Virus record (IMG/VR): IMGVR_UViG_3300032285_001741
Location: 1 to 31,481 of that record
Reading direction: 5' to 3' (one strand)
DNA from: a virus
Length of the DNA stretch: 31,481 nucleotides
The translations under genes were made by a program, and so were the position numbers. Of the stretch, positions 1 through 23,901 are shown piece by piece; position 1 is the first letter of the stretch, and each line of letters begins with the position of its first letter. The notes under the pieces were generated by a model. The model was given only the letters and a program-made list of their open reading frames with translations. It had not been told where the DNA came from and made no database searches.

Positions 1-41
1 CTTTTTTGCACACGGCCGGGAAACCCGAGCGTTTTTGGATA

Positions 42-61
42 TTTGGCTCAACAGAGCCAAA
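42..61. other. Perfect 8-bp hairpin upstream of terminase small subunit
   Basis: TTTGGCTC and GAGCCAAA pair around an AACA tetraloop. The hairpin ends 16 bases before the small terminase ATG. No U-tract follows on either strand, so it is not a standard intrinsic terminator. A shorter CGGG-AAA-CCCG hairpin lies just before it at about 17-27. Hairpins beside terS can belong to the packaging (cos/pac) region or can shield the translation start; neither role can be decided here. Confidence 0.5.
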
Positions 62-77
62 AAGCGGGGGTTGTGTG

Positions 78-611
78 ATGGCGACGGGTCGGCCAGCTGG
101 ACGGCCTGCGAAGCCGTTGGCGCAGCATCGTGCGCTTGGCAATCCGAGCAAGAAGCATCTTCCGGCTGAGCCGACGCCAGAGTTTGCGCTTGCGGTTGTA
201 AAATCTGGTGACGTACCAAGTCCGCCGAGTTCGTTTGGTCGGGTTGCGCTTGAGGCGTGGGATCGGGTGTGGCGCTCGGGTCGTCGGTGGATGCATGATG
301 ATCAGGATCGGATCATCGTTGAGCGTTTGTGTCGGCGCCTAGATGAGATCGCAACGCTTGAGGCGTGGCTTGGTGAGGATGTGACGCGGCGCTGGTATGA
401 GACGGGTTCGGGTCAGATCAAGCCGCATCCGGCGGTTGCGCAGATCAAAGAGGCGGATGTGCAGATAACGGCGTGGCTTTCGATGCTCGGGTTTTCGCCG
501 AGTGATCGGGCGCGTCTTGGACTAGCGGAGATTCGAGTAGCGAATGAGCTTGATGAGTATCGGCAGCGGAAGGCCCGTGTGGTCGACGCCGTCGCTGTTT
601 CCGACGACTGA
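78..611 (+). CDS. terS: Terminase small subunit, P27 family
   Basis: This 177-residue protein should recognise the phage packaging site and load the large terminase on DNA. The N-terminus (GRPAGRPAKPLAQHRALGNP followed by SKKHLP) is the proline/basic signature of P27-type small terminases, and the rest is a helical region that ends in a charged segment. The ATG at 78 is chosen because the signature starts there; a GTG at 75 is directly adjacent, and the frame is open further upstream without family-like sequence. The 3' end overlaps the large terminase by 68 bases, which couples the two subunits. Family assignment is from motif recognition, not from a search. Confidence 0.88.
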   Translation: MATGRPAGRPAKPLAQHRALGNPSKKHLPAEPTPEFALAVVKSGDVPSPPSSFGRVALEAWDRVWRSGRRWMHDDQDRIIVERLCRRLDEIATLEAWLGEDVTRRWYETGSGQIKPHPAVAQIKEADVQITAWLSMLGFSPSDRARLGLAEIRVANELDEYRQRKARVVDAVAVSDD

Positions 612-2196: not shown

Positions 2197-3543
2197 ATGC
2201 TCGGGAACCTGCTGCCGGGCGCTGAGAAGCGCGCGATCTCGTATCAGACGCTGTTTGCGTCGGGCGATTCGATCCTCTTCTCGACGAATTCCGGCGTTGT
2301 CATCAATGAGGAGAATGTCCTCAAGGTCAACGCGGTTTATGCGGCGGTTAGGATCATCGCGGATTCGATCTCGACGCTGCCGGTCGATACGTTCAAGCGC
2401 GTCAGCGGGACGCGCGTTCCGTATCGTCCGAAGCCCGAGTGGCTGGACATGCCCGAGATCGGCGTGACGTTTTCCGACTTGACGCAGGTCGCGCTTGTCT
2501 CGCTGCTGCTGAACGGCAATGCGTTCATTCGAATCCTGCGTGATGAGCGCGGCGTCGCTGGCCTGGTCGTGCTGAATCCGATCAAGGTGCAGGTGACGCG
2601 CACGTCGGATCAGACGCGACCGTTGTACATCTACGACAATCACACCACGATCACGCATGACGAGATGCTTCACATCAAGGAGCTCGTGATGCCTGGTCAG
2701 CAGCGCGGCAAGAGCCGGATCGAGCTCGTGAAGGAGAACCTCGGTCTTGCGTCTGCGCTCGAGCAGTTCGCGGCGCGATTCTTTTCGGGCGCGAACTCGA
2801 GCGGCATCATCGAATATCCCGGCAACCTGACGAAAGAGCAGGCGCTCGATCTCGCTTCGTCGTTTGAGAACGAGCACAAGGGGCTGCGGAAGTCTCACCG
2901 GACCGGCGTTCTCTTCGGTGGTGCAAAGTTTCAGCGGACGACGCCGGACAACAACACGAGTCAGTTCATTGAGTCGCGCAAGTTCGCGGTTGAGGAGATC
3001 GCGCGCGTCTTCCGCGTGCCGCCGTCGATGCTCGGTGTGATCGAGCCGGGCGCATCTTCGTACAACTCGCTCGAGCAGAACTCGATCAACTTCGTCGTGC
3101 ATACGCTCAGGCCGTATATCTACAAGCTGGAGCAGGCATTCACGCGTCTGCTGCCGCAGGGCGTTTTCGTGAAGTACAACGTCGACGGGTTGCTCCGTGG
3201 TGACACGGCCGCACGATCCGCCTACTACGCAAGCGCGATTCAGAACGGCTACATGAGCATCAATCAGGTTCGCGCGCTCGAGGACGCTGCGCCCGTCGAC
3301 GGTGGTGACGAGCTGCGCGTGCCGCTGCACTCCGTTGACCTTGGCGCGGCGAACATCGCCGAGATCGACAAAAAGACCACGATCGCGCAGCGCCTGATCC
3401 AGGCGGGTTTCGAGCCTGCGGCCGTGCTCGAGTCGCTCGGGTTGCCGCCGATCGCGCACACGGGCCTGCCGACCGTGATGCTTCAGCCCGTCGCGCAGGT
3501 CGATCCCGAAAACCCGCAGGCCGCGTACGAGGTGCAGAGCTAA
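2197..3543 (+). CDS. Portal protein, HK97 family
   Basis: This 448-residue protein forms the dodecameric ring at the unique capsid vertex through which DNA enters and leaves. HK97-type portal features are seen in order: the N-terminal KVNAVYAAVRIIADSISTLP segment, the GNAFIRILRD stretch with VVLNPIKVQV, the HIKELVMPGQQRGKSRIEL motif, and the FRVPPSMLGVIEPGASSYNS region with SINFVVHTLRPYIYKLEQAF near the clip/wing. Length is normal for the family. The stop codon TAA shares its last base with the ATG of the protease fusion gene, so translation is coupled. Confidence 0.94.
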   Translation: MLGNLLPGAEKRAISYQTLFASGDSILFSTNSGVVINEENVLKVNAVYAAVRIIADSISTLPVDTFKRVSGTRVPYRPKPEWLDMPEIGVTFSDLTQVALVSLLLNGNAFIRILRDERGVAGLVVLNPIKVQVTRTSDQTRPLYIYDNHTTITHDEMLHIKELVMPGQQRGKSRIELVKENLGLASALEQFAARFFSGANSSGIIEYPGNLTKEQALDLASSFENEHKGLRKSHRTGVLFGGAKFQRTTPDNNTSQFIESRKFAVEEIARVFRVPPSMLGVIEPGASSYNSLEQNSINFVVHTLRPYIYKLEQAFTRLLPQGVFVKYNVDGLLRGDTAARSAYYASAIQNGYMSINQVRALEDAAPVDGGDELRVPLHSVDLGAANIAEIDKKTTIAQRLIQAGFEPAAVLESLGLPPIAHTGLPTVMLQPVAQVDPENPQAAYEVQS

Positions 3544-5360
3544 TGCCCGACATCATCGTCAGCGACGTGGACGACACGATTCTCCGCAACGGTCGCGAGC
3601 CAATCGACAAGACGATCGCGTTCTTGAACGATTCGGATGTGCCCGTGGTGATCGTGACGGGCCGGACCGAGGATGAGCGCGACGAGACCGCCGCCCAGCT
3701 TGAGGCCGCTGGTGTCGAGTACGCGATGCTGATGACGAATAACACGGATGCGGGCACGCTTGATTACAAGCGCTCGACGATGCGAAGCCTGCTTGAGAAG
3801 TTCGACGTTGTGCTTGCCGTCGACAACGACGCTGATGTGCGCGCCGCCTATGCCGATCTTGGCGTAGAGGCGGTTGACCCGACTGATCTGCCCGACGCGG
3901 TGCGCGCCGACGCGGGCTCCTACGTTCCCGACATGCCCAGTATCGAGCAGAAAGCCCTTCCGATGGATCCCGACCAGACGACCGAAGATGCCCTGGAGGC
4001 CACAGAAGGCCCCGAAACCCTCTGCCAGCTTCTCGCCGAGCAGCTGTCCGATGTCGTCGCGTTCAAGTTCATCGCGCACGGCTATCACTGGAACGTCAAG
4101 GGATCTCAGTTCACCGAGTATCACTCGCTCTTCGGAATGATTTACGAGGATGCGAACGAGTCGATCGACCCGCTTGCGGAGAACATTCTCAAGCTCGGCT
4201 ACGACGCGCCGTTCCGCCTGTCGGACTTTCAGCAGCTGCGCGAGCTGGATGAGCCGGCGCTGACGCCGGACACGCCGGCCGCGATGGCCGCGAGCCTGCT
4301 CGATCTCAACGATGACATCATCGATGGGTACAACGAGGCGTACGCGCAGTCTCAGGTTGAGAATCAGCAGGGCGTCGCAAACTTCCTTGCAGAGCGCATC
4401 GATGCGCATCAGAAGTGGGCGTGGCAGCTTCGCTCGAGTATCGGCGCACAGGCGCAGGTGCTGATGCAGCCGGTCGAGAACAAGGTTCCGGCTGAGACGG
4501 GCGAGACGGTGGAGATGATGGACGCGACCGGCATGACGGATCAGATTGATCCCGTCGGTGCGGTTGTGCCTGACTCAAAGATTCGCAGCGTCACGAAGAT
4601 CGCGCGTCCCGTTGAGTACGACGCGCCGACGACGCGCGCGAAGCAGGATGAGCAGGGCGTTGAGCATCGTGTGATGGAGCACGCCAACATTGAGATTCGC
4701 GAAATGACGGACGCTGCTGATGCTGGCGGGATGACGTTCTACGGGTACGCCGCCGTGTTCAACTCGCCGTCTGAGCCGCTGCCGTTTACCGAGACGATCG
4801 CGCCTGGCGCATTCTCGCGAACGCTGAAGGCTCGCAACGAAGTGAAGCTGCTGATGAATCACGACACGGGCCGCGTTCTCGCATCGCGCCGCGCTGGCAC
4901 GCTTCGCCTTAGCGAGGACGCTACGGGACTCCGCGTTGAGGCTGACCTGCCCGACACAAGCGACGGCCGTGATCTCGCCTACCTGCTGAAGCGTGGCGAC
5001 ATCACCACCATGAGCTTCGGATTCACGGTTCCCGCCGGCGGCGACTACTGGTCGGACGAGAACAATCGTCAGCTCCGCGACGTGCGCTTGCACGAAGTGT
5101 CGATCGCGCCGTACGCCGCTTACCCCGCATCGATGGCAAACGTTCGAAGCGTCGACATGCTGGCCGACAAGACCGGCCTCAATGCTGACACGCTGGCCGA
5201 GGCGATGAACGCGCTCGAGCGCGGCGACAAGCTCACCGATGAGCAGGCCGCCGTGCTTGAGGAGAGCGTCGCGAAGCTGCGCGATCACAAGCCTCAGCCG
5301 TCTCCGAGCATTGCCGAGCTGCAGGCTCAGCTCGAGTCTAAGCTGCACGCCGCCGCCTAG
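3543..5360 (+). CDS. HAD phosphatase + Dps ferritin-like + HK97 prohead protease (S78) fusion
   Basis: A single 605-residue ORF with three recognisable domains, about 2.5 times the usual prohead protease length. Residues 3-115 are a HAD phosphatase: DVDDT (D8, D10, T12), VTGR with T39, K77, and hhhhDxxxD at D94/D98. Residues 157-303 are a Dps/ferritin four-helix domain. H182, H194, D209 and E213 have exactly the spacing of the E. coli Dps ferroxidase ligands H51, H63, D78 and E82. Residues 375-537 are a peptidase S78 domain with LLMNHD (H440), MSFGF (S491) and LHEVSIAPYAAYP (E518 as likely third residue). The linkers are Pro/Glu-rich. The gene sits in the standard protease position between portal and capsid. 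The protease call is firm, Dps is strong, HAD is good; the joint function is unknown. Confidence 0.9.
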   Translation: MPDIIVSDVDDTILRNGREPIDKTIAFLNDSDVPVVIVTGRTEDERDETAAQLEAAGVEYAMLMTNNTDAGTLDYKRSTMRSLLEKFDVVLAVDNDADVRAAYADLGVEAVDPTDLPDAVRADAGSYVPDMPSIEQKALPMDPDQTTEDALEATEGPETLCQLLAEQLSDVVAFKFIAHGYHWNVKGSQFTEYHSLFGMIYEDANESIDPLAENILKLGYDAPFRLSDFQQLRELDEPALTPDTPAAMAASLLDLNDDIIDGYNEAYAQSQVENQQGVANFLAERIDAHQKWAWQLRSSIGAQAQVLMQPVENKVPAETGETVEMMDATGMTDQIDPVGAVVPDSKIRSVTKIARPVEYDAPTTRAKQDEQGVEHRVMEHANIEIREMTDAADAGGMTFYGYAAVFNSPSEPLPFTETIAPGAFSRTLKARNEVKLLMNHDTGRVLASRRAGTLRLSEDATGLRVEADLPDTSDGRDLAYLLKRGDITTMSFGFTVPAGGDYWSDENNRQLRDVRLHEVSIAPYAAYPASMANVRSVDMLADKTGLNADTLAEAMNALERGDKLTDEQAAVLEESVAKLRDHKPQPSPSIAELQAQLESKLHAAA

Positions 5361-5438: not shown

Positions 5439-5459
5439 CCACCCGAGGAGCCTCGGTGG
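5439..5459 (+). promoter_or_regulatory. Leader hairpin before capsid gene
   Basis: CCAC (5439-5442) pairs with GTGG (5456-5459) and CGAG (5444-5447) with CTCG (5452-5455), with one bulged C and a GAGC loop. The stem hides the alternative GTG start at 5456 together with its GGAG, leaving the SD and ATG at 5501 free. It may stabilise the capsid message or tune its translation. Confidence 0.4.
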
Positions 5460-5500
5460 GGATCGTCAACGCAACTACGAACGCAGATTGGAGCCGGACA

Positions 5501-6703
5501 ATGTCCGCAGATTTCCTGAAGCAGCAGGTGGAAGGCCGTCAGGCCGCCTGGCACGAGGCCAAGCACCTGCTCGACACGGCAGCCGCCGAAAACCGCGACC
5601 TCACCCTCGAGGAGCGCGAGCAGTACGACCGCATCAACGCTGATCTTGACGAGCGCGCCGCGCTGATCGAGAAGGTCAAGGCCGACGAGAAGCGCGAGGA
5701 GCGCATCGGCAAGGCCATCGAGGGCATGGAGCGCGTCGTGCGCGACGCCAAGGCCAACGGCACCGACGCGGACGTGCTCCGCGCGATGGCAAAGGGCGAC
5801 ATCCGCTCGCACCTGTTCGGTCCCGAGACCCGCGACGTCTACTCGACGTCGACCGGCGCCCCGGTGCCCACGTCGTTCTACGACCAGGTCATTCTGCTTG
5901 CCCGTTACACAGGACCCATGCTTGATCCTGCCGTAACTTCGCATATCACCACCGCTGGTGGTGAGGCGCTGCAGATCCCAAGCCTCGCTTCGTACTCGGC
6001 CGGCACCGCGTTCGCTCAGGGCAGCGCGATCGGCGAGTCCGACACGATCTTCAACAGCTTCGTCACGCTGAACGCGTACAAGTACGCGTTCATCACGCAG
6101 CTGTCGCAGGAGCTGCTCCAGGACGCCGGCGTCGACATCCAGGCGCTGCTGGCGGAGAACACCGCCAACGGCCTCGGCTACTCGGTCGGCAACAAGCTCA
6201 CCGTCGGCACCGGCACCGTCGAGCCGAAGGGCATCGTCGCGGCTGCTGGCTCGGGCATCACGGGCGGCACGGGTGTCTCCGGCACCTTCACGGCTGCCAA
6301 CATCCTTGACCTGATCTGGAGCGTCGACACCGCCGCGCGTATGCGCCCGGGCGCCGGCTTCATGATGAACGCGTCGAGCATCTCGAAGGTGCGCCAGCTC
6401 CAGTCGAGCGGCGGCTACTACATCTTCAGCCCCGCCGCCTCGGCCGACCAGCGCGACCTGATCGGTGGCTACCCGGTCTTCGAGAACCCGCACATGGTGT
6501 CGACGGGCACGTCGGCCAAGTCGGTCATCTTCGGCGACCTCAAGAGCTACATGGTGCGCATCGCCGGCGGCGGCATCCAGATGGATCGCTCCGACGAGTT
6601 CGCCTTCAACCAGGGCCTCGTGACCTACCGCTCGATGATCCGCGTGGACGGGAATCTCCCGCAGTCCAGCCACGTCAAGTACTTCGTCGGCGCTGCTTCC
6701 TAG
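5501..6703 (+). CDS. Major capsid protein, HK97 fold, with N-terminal delta domain
   Basis: This 400-residue shell protein has HK97-type architecture. Residues 1-100 are a charged helical region (LLDTAAAENRDLTLEEREQY, then NADLDERAALIEKVKADEKR) like the HK97 delta scaffold that the protease removes. The capsid core follows: VPTSFYDQVILLARYTGPML, EALQIPSLASYS, a long FVTLNAYKYAFITQLSQELL helix, and a C-terminus ending in VTYRSMIRVDGNLPQSSHVK. No separate scaffolding gene is visible, as expected with a fused delta domain. ATG 5501 has GGAG seven bases upstream. A GTG at 5456 also has GGAG but lies in a hairpin, and its extra 15 residues look unstructured, so 5501 is preferred. Confidence 0.93.
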   Translation: MSADFLKQQVEGRQAAWHEAKHLLDTAAAENRDLTLEEREQYDRINADLDERAALIEKVKADEKREERIGKAIEGMERVVRDAKANGTDADVLRAMAKGDIRSHLFGPETRDVYSTSTGAPVPTSFYDQVILLARYTGPMLDPAVTSHITTAGGEALQIPSLASYSAGTAFAQGSAIGESDTIFNSFVTLNAYKYAFITQLSQELLQDAGVDIQALLAENTANGLGYSVGNKLTVGTGTVEPKGIVAAAGSGITGGTGVSGTFTAANILDLIWSVDTAARMRPGAGFMMNASSISKVRQLQSSGGYYIFSPAASADQRDLIGGYPVFENPHMVSTGTSAKSVIFGDLKSYMVRIAGGGIQMDRSDEFAFNQGLVTYRSMIRVDGNLPQSSHVKYFVGAAS

Positions 6704-6779: not shown

Positions 6780-8024
6780 ATGAATCGTGCTCATCGACGC
6801 GCCACCGGCGCAACCAGCACCAAGAATGGACCCGCCAAAAAGTCGGCGACGAGTCCGCTCCGAATCACCTGGTGCAGCAACAGCCCGCTCGTCGCCACCG
6901 GCTACGGAACGCAGACGGCACAAGTTACGCGCCGCATGCACAACGCTGGCCACGAAGTCGCCGTAGCGTGCAACTACGGCCTTGAGGGCTCTTCGATGAA
7001 TTGGGAAGGGATACACGTATATCCGCGTGGCCTTGCCAACTACAGCGAAGACGTGATGGTCGCGTATTCGATGCATTGGGCGTCACAGAATCCGGCGGCG
7101 AAGAGCGTGCTGTTCACGTTGTATGACGTGTGGGTCTACAACCAGAATCCGAGTCTCAAGACGATCCCGCGGATTTACAGTTGGGTTCCCGTAGATCATC
7201 AGCCCGCACCACCACAAGTGCTGGAGTGGTGCAAGCGCGACAACGTCACGCCAATCGCGATGAGCAAGTTCGGCAAGGACATGCTTGAGCTGGACGGTGT
7301 CAAGTGCGAGTACATTCCGCACGCGATCGAGCCCGTCTTCAAGCCGACGCTCACGATTGATGGGCCGATGGGTCGTCAGACGCCGCGCGAGCTGCTCGGC
7401 ATTCCCAACGACGCGTTCGTCGTGATGATGAACAGCGCGAACAAGGGCGTCACGCCGTGTCGGAAGGCATTCGGCCAGGCAATCCTCGCATTCAGCATCT
7501 TCGCGCTTGAGCATCCCGACGCGATCCTCTACCTGCACACCGAGGACACGGGCGCGATGAGTGGCATCAACCTGCGAGAGCTGCTCAAGGCCGCGAGTGT
7601 CAAGCCGGAGCAGGTTCGTTTTGTGGATCAGTTCGCGTATCGGTTGGGCATTCCGCAGGAGACGCTGGCCGCGTTCTACACGATGAGCGACGTATTGCTT
7701 GCGCCGAGCATGGGCGAGGGCTTCGGCATCCCGGTCATTGAGGCGCAGGCTTGCGGGTTGCCGGTGATCGTCAGTGACTTCTCGGCGCAGCCCGAGCTTG
7801 TGGGCGATGGTTGGACGGTCGCGGGCCAGCCCGAATGGGACGCGATGCAGACCTCGTGGTTCTTCACGCCACACGTTGGCGCCATCGTTGACGCGCTGAA
7901 CAAGGCGTACCAGGCTGAGCGCGGACCGAGCGACAAAGCGATTGAGTTTGCCGCTGACTACGCGGCCGACAAGGTTTTTGCTGAGTCGTGGAAGCCGCTG
8001 CTGGAGAAGGCGGCGAACGAGTGA
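6780..8024 (+). CDS. Glycosyltransferase, GT4-like (GT-B fold)
   Basis: A 414-residue retaining-type glycosyltransferase. The N-terminal Rossmann domain has VATGYGTQTAQVTRRMHNAG, where the glycine loop contacts the acceptor and nucleotide sugar. The C-terminal donor domain has DVLLAPSMGEGFGIPVIEAQ with the E-x7-E pair E313/E321. The first 25 residues (MNRAHRRATG...) are basic and Thr/Lys-rich and look like an added tail. A good GGAGA lies before the ATG. It heads a four-gene cassette placed between capsid and connector genes, so virion proteins are the likely acceptors; the sugar is unknown. DNA or host glycan modification is an alternative. Confidence 0.88.
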   Translation: MNRAHRRATGATSTKNGPAKKSATSPLRITWCSNSPLVATGYGTQTAQVTRRMHNAGHEVAVACNYGLEGSSMNWEGIHVYPRGLANYSEDVMVAYSMHWASQNPAAKSVLFTLYDVWVYNQNPSLKTIPRIYSWVPVDHQPAPPQVLEWCKRDNVTPIAMSKFGKDMLELDGVKCEYIPHAIEPVFKPTLTIDGPMGRQTPRELLGIPNDAFVVMMNSANKGVTPCRKAFGQAILAFSIFALEHPDAILYLHTEDTGAMSGINLRELLKAASVKPEQVRFVDQFAYRLGIPQETLAAFYTMSDVLLAPSMGEGFGIPVIEAQACGLPVIVSDFSAQPELVGDGWTVAGQPEWDAMQTSWFFTPHVGAIVDALNKAYQAERGPSDKAIEFAADYAADKVFAESWKPLLEKAANE

Positions 8025-8683
8025 TTACGACCGTCGTCATGCCGGTGCTCAACGGGTACGACTTGCTCAAGCGCAGCATTGGATCGCTGCCGGATTCGGT
8101 GCGGAACGTGCTGATTATCGACAATGGTGATTGCCTGAGCCGGTGGGATTTGGACGAGCTCTCGCACCCCGGCCTGCGTCTTCTCAGCATGCCGTCGAAT
8201 CTGGGCGTGCCGCAGTCGTGGAACCTCGGCATCAAGCTCTATCCGCACGAGCCCGGCTGGCTCTTGATGAATCACGACGCGTGGTTCGGTGAGGGAGCGT
8301 GGGAGCGATTCTCAGCGGACGTGGGGGAGGATCGCATCACGCTCGCCGGTAGCCCGCCGTGGTGCTGCGCGTGGATCGGTCGCGGCGTCGTCGATCGCGT
8401 CGGATTGTTCTGCGAAGCGTTCTACCCCGCCTACATGGAAGACGTGGACTACGAGCGTCGCGCTCGAGCACTCGGCATTCCCGTCGAGACGAGCACGGCC
8501 ACGGTCGGGCACGACAACTCCAGCACGATCCGCTCAGACGAGCGCCTGCTGCGCCGAAACGACGCATCGCACGCGCGTAACGCGGCCATTTACGACAATC
8601 GATGGCACGGCCTGCACGACCACGAAGTACCCGCGCAGCTCGATTGGAGCCTGTATCAGCGGACGGTGAACCGGTGGGACTAG
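8021..8683 (+). CDS. Glycosyltransferase, GT2-like (GT-A fold)
   Basis: A 220-residue protein with the GT-A fold of family 2, similar to rhamnosyltransferase-like enzymes. ITTVVMPVLNGYDLLKRSI opens the nucleotide-binding half. The DxD-position motif reads NHD at residues 84-86, and the acceptor/base motif YMEDVDYERRARALG (E140, D141, D143) is well conserved. The GTG at 8021 is chosen because it overlaps the preceding stop as GTGA and the homology starts there. Coupled translation with the GT4 gene suggests successive sugar additions on the same glycan. Confidence 0.85.
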   Translation: MITTVVMPVLNGYDLLKRSIGSLPDSVRNVLIIDNGDCLSRWDLDELSHPGLRLLSMPSNLGVPQSWNLGIKLYPHEPGWLLMNHDAWFGEGAWERFSADVGEDRITLAGSPPWCCAWIGRGVVDRVGLFCEAFYPAYMEDVDYERRARALGIPVETSTATVGHDNSSTIRSDERLLRRNDASHARNAAIYDNRWHGLHDHEVPAQLDWSLYQRTVNRWD

Positions 8684-9261
8684 ACCTCACGCATCCGCGC
8701 AGCACCGAGCTGGGACCTGCGGCGCCCGTTCCGATTCTGCAGCGCGAGTGGGAGTTCGACACGCTGCTGCATATCTACGCGGATAAGAAGCCGAAGCGTG
8801 TTCTTGAGATTGGCACGTATCACGGCGGCACGCTCTTTCACTGGTTATCGACGCATGCGCCAGAAACGGTCGTCGCGGTCGACTCGTATCAGACCGGCGT
8901 CGACAATCGGCACCTCTTTCACGAGTGGGCAACCGAGCACGACTCCAAACTCGTGATCGTTCAGGGCGATTCGATGCATCCCGACACGGTCGCGGCCGTT
9001 GCCGAGCACGCGCCGTTTGATTGGGTTTGGATTGACGCGGGTCATTTTGAGCACGAAGCACAAGCCGATTGGGACAATTACGGCAGTCTCTGCGCGCCTG
9101 GCGGGATCGTCTGCCTGCACGACATTCTCACGCACCCGTCGCATCCAGCGATCGAGGTTGAGCCCGTCTGGCGACGCATCCAATCCTCGGGGTACTTGAC
9201 GCGCGAGCTCGTCGCCGACCCGCACGCGGAGTGGGGCGGTATCGGAGTCGTCTACCTGTGA
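8674..9261 (+). CDS. SAM-dependent methyltransferase, class I (Methyltransf_24 / CmcI-like)
   Basis: A 195-residue Rossmann methyltransferase. VLEIGTYHGGTLFHW (residues 43-57) is the SAM-binding motif I, AVDSYQ (D70) is motif II, and WIDAGHFEHEAQADWDNYGS followed by LCAPGGIVCLHDIL is the signature region of cephalosporin-hydroxylase-like or sugar O-methyltransferases. The start GTG 8674 overlaps the GT2 stop by 10 bases; upstream codons in this frame are Arg/Pro-rich and unlike the family. In this cassette it plausibly methylates a sugar added by the neighbouring transferases, which would cap the glycan. The substrate is inferred from context only. Confidence 0.82.
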   Translation: MGLDLTHPRSTELGPAAPVPILQREWEFDTLLHIYADKKPKRVLEIGTYHGGTLFHWLSTHAPETVVAVDSYQTGVDNRHLFHEWATEHDSKLVIVQGDSMHPDTVAAVAEHAPFDWVWIDAGHFEHEAQADWDNYGSLCAPGGIVCLHDILTHPSHPAIEVEPVWRRIQSSGYLTRELVADPHAEWGGIGVVYL

Positions 9262-19257: not shown

Positions 19258-19464
19258 GTGCACCGCAATGATGTTTACGCCATGACAGTGACGCGCCAGG
19301 CGCGACTGCTTGCGATCAGGATCGCCGGCGGTTGGATCGCTCTCGAGGCCGCGGCGGATTCGCTGCCAACTCGTCCGTCATCGCGACGATCTCAGCAGCG
19401 GTACGCGACCGCACAACAACGCGGGTCCGCTCGGTCGACAGACCAAGAATCCAATCGGCGCTGA
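19258..19464 (+). CDS. Doubtful 68-residue ORF antisense to repressor
   Basis: A GTG lies 6 bases downstream of the TTTAAT box after the G tract, opening a 68-codon frame that runs into the 3' part of the repressor gene on the opposite strand. The product is Arg/Ser/Gln-rich with no recognisable domain (ending DQESNRR), which is typical of a shadow frame. It is listed because of the promoter-like spacing. An antisense RNA is a better guess than a protein. Confidence 0.2.
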   Translation: MHRNDVYAMTVTRQARLLAIRIAGGWIALEAAADSLPTRPSSRRSQQRYATAQQRGSARSTDQESNRR

Positions 19465-19663
19465 CACCAAAGTGCTCGGCAATACGGACGATGCTTTCCG
19501 TTGACGGCAGGTTCACGCCAGCGCACCATCGGCTGAGCACGGGCGTCTGAACACGCAAGTCGAAGCTCGTCTCAGTCTGCGTCACGCCGCTCTCTTCAAT
19601 CAGAAGAGCGAGACGCTTGCCAACTTGCTTGGCGAACTCGGTGTTGCGCGGGGGACTTGCCAT
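19316..19663 (-). CDS. XRE-family repressor (Cro/CI-like)
   Basis: A 115-residue leftward DNA-binding protein, the likely immunity repressor. FAKQVGKRLALLIEESGVTQ followed by ETSFDLRVQTPVLSRWCAGV forms the XRE helix-turn-helix, and NLPSTESIVRIAEHFGVSAD completes the domain with WILGLS. The C-terminal 45 residues are Arg/Pro-rich without a peptidase domain, so it should not be cleaved in a LexA-like way. The ATG at 19663 is preferred over one at 19705, since a TTAGAT box lies exactly 6 bases upstream, implying a leaderless transcript. Its gene diverges from the early operon. Confidence 0.8.
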   Translation of the reverse strand: MASPPRNTEFAKQVGKRLALLIEESGVTQTETSFDLRVQTPVLSRWCAGVNLPSTESIVRIAEHFGVSADWILGLSTERTRVVVRSRTAAEIVAMTDELAANPPRPRERSNRRRS

Positions 19664-19669
19664 ACGCGT

Positions 19670-19675
19670 ATCTAA
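19670..19675 (-). promoter_or_regulatory. -10 box of leaderless repressor promoter
   Basis: Read leftward the sequence is TTAGAT, then ACGCGT, then ATG of the repressor. A six-base gap places the transcription start at the initiation codon. The -35 position holds only a weak TAGGTA 17 bases upstream. A very similar box (TTAGAT) precedes the integrase gene. Confidence 0.45.
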
Positions 19676-19743
19676 GCACAGTTGTGACGAGATACCTACA
19701 CACAATGAGTATTTAGCCGAAACACATTCGTTACGTCAGGGTA

Positions 19744-22617: not shown

Positions 22618-22825
22618 CCGGATCAGCGTCCATCCCGAGACGATCCGGCGCATGATTCGGCGCGGCGAGTTGTCCGCGCTCAAGGTTGGGCCGACGTATC
22701 GCGTCGATCCGTCGGATCTCGTACCTAAGCGTTTTGAGGTTGAGCCGCGAGCGCCGCGGCCTGACGATTCTCCGCTTGCTGGAGTCGTGCGCGCCGAACT
22801 GCTCCGTCGAGGGATCGGCGTTTAG
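22586..22825 (+). CDS. Excisionase-like HTH protein, copy 2
   Basis: A 79-residue paralogue of the preceding protein: LLTVEEAANRISVHPETIRR and MIRRGELSALKVGPTYRVDP with SDL align residue for residue with copy 1. The C-terminal half differs and ends AELLRRGIGV. The last 101 bases overlap the 3' end of the integrase gene on the other strand, so transcription of one may disturb the other. One copy may be the excisionase and the other a regulator; which is which cannot be said. Confidence 0.75.
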   Translation: MTLLTVEEAANRISVHPETIRRMIRRGELSALKVGPTYRVDPSDLVPKRFEVEPRAPRPDDSPLAGVVRAELLRRGIGV

Positions 22826-23831
22826 AACCATGAGCCTCTTGGTACACGTGCGCATAGACGCCGAGCGTCATGTTCGGATTGGCGTGGCCGAGCTCGAGCG
22901 CGACCTCGGGGATCGTCATGCCCGAGTGGATCAGCAGGCTCGCGAATGTGTGGCGCAAGTCGTAGGGGCGCGCGTCGATGCCGGCGGCCTCGGCTGCGGG
23001 AACCCAGATGCGACGGAACCAGTTCTTCCAATGGAGGATGCCGCCGCGCAGGCCGGGCACGACAAGCTCGTCAGGCTCGCCGCGACCATATTCGGCAATG
23101 TCGCCGCGCAGGATCTTGCCGACGTTGACGAGTCGCGTCTTGCCGGTTTTGGTGCGGACGATGATGCCGCTCTGCGCAGACTGCTCGACGCGGATATGCC
23201 GATCGGTGACGTGCTTCCATTGCAGGCCGCACAGCTCTCCCGGTCGGAGTCCGGCATAGGCGAGCAGGCTGACGATGAGTTGGTCGCGCGCGGTCGGCAT
23301 TTGATCGCGGATCTGTTCGACCTCGAGCGGAGTCAGTGCGCGCCGATTGGTCGGGAGCGTTTTGAGGCGTTTGACGCCGAGGCACGGGTTCGATTCGATC
23401 AGTCCTTCATCGCGTGCAGCTGTCATCGCTGCGCTGAGAACGGAGTGCGCCTGGTTGGCGGTCTTTTCGGTGGCGCCGCTGGCGAGCACGTCGACGCGGT
23501 ACTCGCGGATTCGCATGCCGGTGATGCGCGCGATCGGCACGTCACCGAGTTGCTTGTCGATCCAGCAGTCGTAGATGCTCTTGCGACGCTTGAGCGTGGT
23601 CGTCGCCCATTCGGGTCCGTGAGCGCGGAACCATTGGACGAACCAGTCGCGCAGCGTCATGCCGCCGGTAATGATCGGAGTGGGGGCTGCGCCGAGTTTG
23701 GTGGAAGCGTCCAGGCGTCGAGCTTCGGCGAGTGTTTCCACGGTTTTGGAGCGTTGACGGTTCGTTTCGTCGCGCCACATCACTCGGTATCGCGTGCCGC
23801 CTTTCGGCGTGGCGTACTTGTGGATGCTCAT
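22725..23831 (-). CDS. int: Tyrosine integrase
   Basis: A 368-residue leftward site-specific recombinase. Residues 1-60 form the AP2-like arm-binding domain (KGGTRYRVMWRDETNRQRSK), residues 60-150 the SAM-like core-binding domain, and 165-340 the catalytic domain with AYAGLRPGEL (R196), K231 region, YDLRHTFASL (R293, H294), LELGHANPNM (H316) and nucleophile VYAHVY (Y326). The usual first histidine of HxxR is Y290, a frequent variant. ATG 23831 has GGAGGGG upstream; an earlier ATG lacks a ribosome site and would translate through an arm repeat. It should integrate the phage at the tRNA-like attP found at 23994. Confidence 0.93.
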   Translation of the reverse strand: MSIHKYATPKGGTRYRVMWRDETNRQRSKTVETLAEARRLDASTKLGAAPTPIITGGMTLRDWFVQWFRAHGPEWATTTLKRRKSIYDCWIDKQLGDVPIARITGMRIREYRVDVLASGATEKTANQAHSVLSAAMTAARDEGLIESNPCLGVKRLKTLPTNRRALTPLEVEQIRDQMPTARDQLIVSLLAYAGLRPGELCGLQWKHVTDRHIRVEQSAQSGIIVRTKTGKTRLVNVGKILRGDIAEYGRGEPDELVVPGLRGGILHWKNWFRRIWVPAAEAAGIDARPYDLRHTFASLLIHSGMTIPEVALELGHANPNMTLGVYAHVYQEAHGSKRRSLDGAVRRARLQQAENRQAAALAAQPQNA

Positions 23832-23846
23832 GGACCCCTCCGGTCG

Positions 23847-23870
23847 GCATGTTGCATGGATGTTGCATGG
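23847..23870. repeat. Arm-type integrase site, copy 1
   Basis: GC plus two tandem copies of ATGTTGCATGG, a 24-base block repeated exactly, in the same orientation, at 24170-24193. It lies in the integrase leader on the P-arm side of the core, so integrase binding here could also repress its own gene. Confidence 0.7.
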
Positions 23871-23895
23871 AACGGGGTTTTGTCGTCCCGAACGC

Positions 23896-23901
23896 ATCTA
23901 A
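23896..23901 (-). promoter_or_regulatory. -10-like box for integrase
   Basis: Read leftward, TGTGATTAGAT contains a TTAGAT box, the same hexamer as before the repressor gene. It would give a leader of roughly 60 bases that spans the first arm-type repeat before the integrase ATG. Confidence 0.35.

Follow-up and report, generated by a model that had tools for sequence, protein, structure and literature searches.

A Dps-type ferritin domain with an H-H-D-E metal site inside the head maturation protease of a phage

The canonical ferroxidase centre of the Dps miniferritins consists of five conserved residues, among which the residue at position 67, either Asp or Glu, coordinates site B via water (PMC6675082). 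In E. coli Dps the higher-affinity site is made up of His51, His63 and Glu82 and the low-affinity site of Lys48, Asp67 and Asp78 (PMC9140674; PMC6150300), with the ligands spanning the two-fold interface (PMC9140674), and Glu64 and Asp67 are reported as nucleation residues (PMC6150300). Other arrangements are found in NpDps4, which has Asn at position 67, binds iron, oxidises Fe(II) with O2 and was not seen to use H2O2 when O2 was present (PMC6675082), and in CAIP, reported as a 12-mer with 12 iron sites (PMC5225449). Dps proteins are also encoded by phages, where they are known as stand-alone genes (PMC8008677, PMC6669764; phrog_3636) and have so far been read as separate enzymes that aid host survival of oxidative stress. 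In the present locus the Dps lies inside a head protease, a fusion of which no description was found in a search of openly accessible papers.

The window analysed here, the whole stretch of 31,481 nucleotides, contains a fusion gene whose ATG overlaps the stop codon of the portal gene (TAATG) and whose product is an HK97-type head maturation protease with two N-terminal modules on flexible linkers (Table 1). The protease part gives a Pfam match (PF04586) over residues 389-536 with 140 bits against a cutoff of 21, and portal and capsid genes stand on either side of it. The first module is assigned to the HAD phosphatases from profiles (PF03767 over residues 25-99, 29.1 bits against a cutoff of 27) and motif residues, the listed fold matches being filled by Dps entries. 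The motifs DxDxT, T/S, K and acidic motif IV are all present in the fusion protein; D8, D10, T12, T39 and K76 do not vary among its 12 fused relatives, one of which has Glu at D94. A full-length AlphaFold model, made from 12 sequences and with a pLDDT of 53.5 in the protease, served for domain limits only. Inspection by eye for an internal start that would yield only the protease gave none that is conserved across the fusion loci L001, L002 and L003. The nearest cultured homologue of the major capsid protein is that of Pontimonas phage phiPsal1 (41%); two glycosyltransferases and a methyltransferase lie within the head-gene cluster (window 6780-9261, plus strand), as in phiPsal1. A tyrosine integrase (22725-23897) and a helix-turn-helix repressor (19316-19705), both on the minus strand, mark the virus as a temperate phage.

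Table 1. Features of the fusion gene and its neighbours (window positions)
Feature	Position	Strand	Basis
Portal protein, directly 5' of fusion gene	2197..3543	+	Phage_portal 8e-81
605-aa ORF, HAD phosphatase–Dps–S78 prohead protease fusion	3543..5360	+	ORF, translation, Pfam
HAD phosphatase domain, residues 1-115	3543..3887	+	Acid_phosphat_B 8.8e-7; phrog_415 polynucleotide kinase 3e-13; motif columns
Linker 1, acidic, predicted disordered, residues 116-158, net charge -9	3888..4016	+	Disorder prediction, composition
Dps-type ferritin domain, residues 159-303	4017..4451	+	Pfam 8e-17; AF2 pLDDT 94.6; Z 22.9 to MrgA
His179, E. coli K48 position	4077..4079	+	Alignment
His182, E. coli H51 ligand	4086..4088	+	Alignments
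His194, E. coli H63 ligand	4122..4124	+	Alignments
Gly198, fifth ligand position (E. coli D67), ligand missing	4134..4136	+	Alignments
Asp209, E. coli D78 ligand	4167..4169	+	Alignments
Glu213, E. coli E82 ligand	4179..4181	+	Alignments
Asn214, replacing Arg83 (Arg in 32/33 cellular Dps)	4182..4184	+	Alignment
Asn280, replacing 3-fold pore Asp (E. coli D146)	4380..4382	+	Alignment
Linker 2, predicted disordered, fast-evolving, residues 304-383	4452..4691	+	Disorder prediction, dN/dS
S78 prohead (capsid maturation) protease domain, H440 and S491 conserved	4692..5177	+	Pfam 1.1e-40; phrog_80 8e-47
HK97-type major capsid protein, directly 3' of fusion gene	5456..6703	+	Phage_capsid 7e-47

The initial annotation had placed a Dps domain at 4011-4451, which corresponds to residues 157-303 of the open reading frame, and by both profile and fold, with matches well outside the range of chance, this is a genuine Dps-type domain. 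The Pfam Ferritin family (PF00210) matches residues 162-299 with 61.9 bits against a cutoff of 24.5, phmmer against the PDB gives a Dps match at 4e-13, and the domain matches phrog_3636, labelled 'DNA binding protein', at 1.9e-22. A domain-only AF2 model built from 65 related sequences is confidently predicted (Table 1), with helices at model residues 6-32, 38-65, 74-80, 93-120 and 124-148, an order that is that of the Dps four-helix bundle including the short BC helix. All the Foldseek matches listed for this model are Dps-family entries, and VIA-align fits it to MrgA with an rmsd of 1.2 over 145 positions. The Lys-rich N-terminal tail of DNA-binding Dps is absent, the preceding linker (residues 116-158) being acidic with 2 K/R against 11 D/E; DNA binding is not common to all Dps.

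The four residues on which the initial annotation had centred, H182, H194, D209 and E213, do occur in the translation at spacings of 12, 15 and 4 and sit, as it said, in HWNVKGSQFTEYH and DPLAENI. They align with H51, H63, D78 and E82 of E. coli Dps, and the letters are identical in the solved Dps structures 8ff9, 5lbh and 3iq1. A structural alignment to Dps, which had been proposed as a check, agrees at the level of the predicted monomer, whose residues superpose on the Dps ligand positions. The VIA alignments pair model residues 4..149 with 9..153 of MrgA, 6..153 with 7..156 of Listeria Dps and 6..149 with 1..144 of H. pylori NapA, and these offsets put model residues 30/42/57/61 on 35/47/62/66, 31/43/58/62 and 25/37/52/56, respectively, the known ligand numbers of the three proteins. 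From this monomer superposition we infer that the four ligands would converge at an inter-subunit site.

The description of the ligand set as complete does not hold, because the canonical centre has five ligands and position 67 is Gly198. All three residues of the high-affinity site are retained, whereas the low-affinity site is altered, and the domain is to be classed as Dps-like, and not as a canonical-centre Dps, because it lacks the position-67 acid. His179, at the Lys48 position of the low-affinity site, is His in 18 of 33 cellular controls and in 61 of the 69 phage Dps domains that were found without search bias (below). The nucleation residues E64 and D67 of E. coli are Ser195 and Gly198 in the phage domain, and with these and the pore Asp replaced, iron entry and mineral storage may differ even when metal is bound. 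An active iron-oxidising or peroxide-consuming enzyme, as originally proposed, is plausible. Both storage and H2O2 use may be poor in a domain that lacks the fifth ligand as well as the pore Asp and the reported nucleation residues.

What, then, has been held constant in this domain and what has been allowed to change? Among the relatives collected first, 13/13 protease-fused domains and 61/61 others carry all four ligands, the latter including two cellular genes from metagenome bins. Part of this first set had been retrieved by means of the pattern HGYHWNVK, in which H182 is given in advance, and for that reason the search was redone with the C-terminal half only. Search bias as the cause of the invariance could then be rejected, since without the ligand region in the query the four ligands are still invariant in 69/69 distinct phage Dps domains. 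They are likewise kept in 22/22 of a second protease-fused set, and overall in 34/34 distinct prohead-protease-fused domains. Other positions behave quite differently. Position 67 in the 69 phage domains is E in 16, Q in 14, L in 14, G in 10, A in 9, S in 4 and D in 2, and it is acidic in 27/33 cellular controls as against 0/13 of the first and 2/22 of the second protease-fused set. Position 83 is Arg in 32/33 cellular controls and Asn, Tyr, Trp or others in the phage domains, position 141 is Asp in 33/33 controls and mostly Gln or Glu in the phages, and T144, near-invariant in cellular Dps, is likewise replaced. In all these comparisons the cellular control (n=33) covers one class plus two sequences, namely 31 alphaproteobacterial Dps with E. 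coli Dps and MrgA, and Fisher values for phage against cellular sequences overstate independence because the sequences share kinship.

Between the window and L002 the Dps domain has a dN/dS of 0.065, a sign of strong purifying selection, compared with 0.45 for linker 2, and phage and cellular Dps separate in a tree in which the phage domains form a single clade (SH-aLRT 100). Since the core is unchanged while residues nearly invariant in cells have been rewritten, the phage sequences form a Dps subfamily of their own, divergent but with an H-H-D-E site, and the earlier statement that the domain is not a leftover is well supported by the 69/69 core, the dN/dS of 0.065 and the replacement of R83, D141 and T144. 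That it might be a degenerate relic, a captured host Dps retained as an inert spacer, has in its favour a fifth ligand position, R83 position and pore motif unlike those of cellular Dps; set against the invariant core, the low dN/dS, the single well-separated clade and the confident fold, it is in our judgement very improbable indeed. Synonymous divergence between the window and L002 is 0.22 in the HAD and Dps parts and 0.82 in the protease, values suggesting that modules were once exchanged, the breakpoint lying close to linker 2.

Dps–protease fusions recur, in several domain orders, in about 40 viral contigs, and as these are independent contigs an assembly artefact or chimera can be rejected. 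The HAD-Dps-S78 order of the window is found in L001-L006 and L085-L090, with L091 a fragment; in 22 loci the order is WGG-Dps-(about 270 aa)-S78, and four more have Dps-S78 with no WGG domain detected, this second group amounting to 22 distinct Dps sequences, one of them from the L002 contig again. In L009, L021, L035 and L008 a Dps lies near the C-terminus of portal/protease polyproteins of 891 to 1740 aa, three of which also have the WGG domain. In L256, HAD-WGG-Dps and S78 are in different frames, so that the gene may be split, be read by a programmed frameshift or contain a sequencing error. The 798-aa product of L023 (5758-8154) has a Dps in its interior and a zeta-toxin-like kinase region that matches a phage minor head protein. 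Prophage or host copies were considered as a source, and a scan of genome contigs yielded no more than two Dps genes, both distant and both placed with cellular Dps in the tree. Among cultured phages no such fusion was found, only five records matching the Dps domain, all at <60% identity. That two fusion groups captured Dps separately is not favoured: a quick tree needs two changes, but a one-clade tree is not rejected (p-AU 0.57) in a test of 13 fused rows, a third fused group, found later, being outside the tree.

Where Dps is not fused to a protease it still tends to be near head genes, for the immediate upstream neighbours of 51 such genes include 25 portal, 6 minor head and 4 head protease genes. 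Another 8 are endolysin genes, so that head linkage is not universal; stand-alone Dps genes lie directly 3' of an endolysin gene in L061, L063, L067, L068, L069, L057, L075 and L077. Stand-alone genes of this kind, some of them beside endolysin genes, agree with the role in host protection that has been put forward for the Dps of Lactobacillus and Gratiaviridae phages (PMC6669764, PMC8008677), and for the window this would mean that Dps works in the cytoplasm of the infected cell against iron and peroxide stress, the protease fusion only setting its expression level. The repeated fusion to proteases and portals that act in the head, together with the recurring head-gene position, is better matched by a virion role, and host protection we regard as quite improbable.

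The joint explanation that we place first, to which we would give an even chance, is that an iron-binding Dps is carried on the maturation protease, is loaded into the head and guards the phage DNA. By homology, the module would pair two-fold as in Dps, each site drawing His182/His194 from one subunit and Asp209/Glu213 from its partner, and it would bind and probably oxidise Fe(II), at a rate and with an oxidant that are uncertain because the position-67 carboxylate is missing. Carriage into the head is the most likely route because the Dps is fused to a protease that acts inside the procapsid. On the strength of the fusion, it could ride in as N-terminal cargo of the protease and be freed by linker cleavage during maturation. 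In the head, or on entering the next cell, it might then clear Fe(II) and peroxide from around the phage DNA. The recurrence of the domain beside or within head proteins of many aquatic phages suggests that it may be built into the virus particle.

The same arrangement could be read as an assembly device in which Dps, as a dimer or dodecamer, gathers the protease into clusters or sets its position in the procapsid. The metal site would then do no more than stabilise the two-fold interface, with no ferroxidase turnover needed. Such a role would account for the fusion of Dps to, or its position adjoining, head genes in several lineages, for ligands that span the two-fold interface (PMC9140674), and for a storage chemistry that looks weakened by changes in the fifth ligand, pore Asp and nucleation residues. 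It accounts less readily for four invariant ligands, since other contacts could serve a structural role, or for the many close homologues that are stand-alone Dps genes. Related proteases without Dps carry other domains in that region, and Dps is therefore not needed for protease assembly in general. We consider the assembly role unlikely, if the strongest of the competing readings.

The domains found in the Dps-less relatives bear on the protective-cargo explanation more broadly. In these the same protease region holds a HiPIP-like Cys4 domain, HAD alone, DUF3721, DUF5824 or TUDOR. The HiPIP-like four-cysteine domain (a weak Pfam match, 0.014) occurs on the proteases of phiPsal1 (L084:3748-5199), L110-L119 and others, and, in the place of HAD-Dps, represents another possibly iron-binding module on a prohead protease. 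DUF3721, DUF5824 and Hva1_TUDOR are seen on protease N-terminal regions in L128, L143, L166 and L142. DUF5824 additionally occurs joined to Dps next to portal genes (the loci concerned also include L041, L045, L048, L054 and L056), and its presence on both proteases and Dps makes these accessory modules common to unrelated head genes. Prohead proteases carry, in these domains, a set of exchangeable modules. One tentative reading, which we think possible yet doubtful, is that the protease/portal polyproteins of aquatic phages are cargo carriers that load exchangeable Dps, HiPIP-like, HAD phosphatase, DUF5824 and TUDOR domains into the procapsid, in which case some virions would contain Dps, perhaps as ~9 nm cages beside the DNA. 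A Dps within a head maturation protease, with a core invariant across many aquatic phages and a recurring head-gene setting, suggests that the particle or its assembly involves iron or redox chemistry.

Among the closest systems described so far are the phage Dps of phrog_3636, including those of Gratiaviridae and Lactobacillus phages, with whose relatives the H-H-D-E core is shared; the published phage Dps are separate genes interpreted as host-protection enzymes (PMC8008677, PMC6669764), whereas the Dps of the window is a head-protease fusion. Pontimonas phage phiPsal1 has the nearest cultured S78 protease, of the same family and in a similar portal-protease-capsid-glycosyltransferase order, but what precedes its protease, in the place of the window's HAD-Dps, is a HiPIP-like Cys4 together with a 'WGG' domain. 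With the Dps miniferritins (E. coli Dps, B. subtilis MrgA, Listeria Dps and P. aeruginosa PA0962) the phage domain has in common the four-helix fold, the short BC helix, H51/H63/D78/E82, W52 and W160, and it differs from them in (i) Gly at the fifth ligand and the replacement of R83, D141, T144 and D146, (ii) a flanking linker (net -9) that has no Lys-rich tail, and (iii) its position between a phosphatase and a protease in one chain. The want of an acid at position 67 is shared with NpDps4, a His-type Dps, and with CAIP, which has Gln there in the phmmer PDB alignment, and since both still bind metal its loss is evidently tolerated elsewhere. NpDps4 has His at position 78 and a third-subunit His, whereas the phage domain keeps Asp at 78. 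An H-H-D-E site without the fifth ligand is a useful one in which to ask which ligands Dps chemistry needs.
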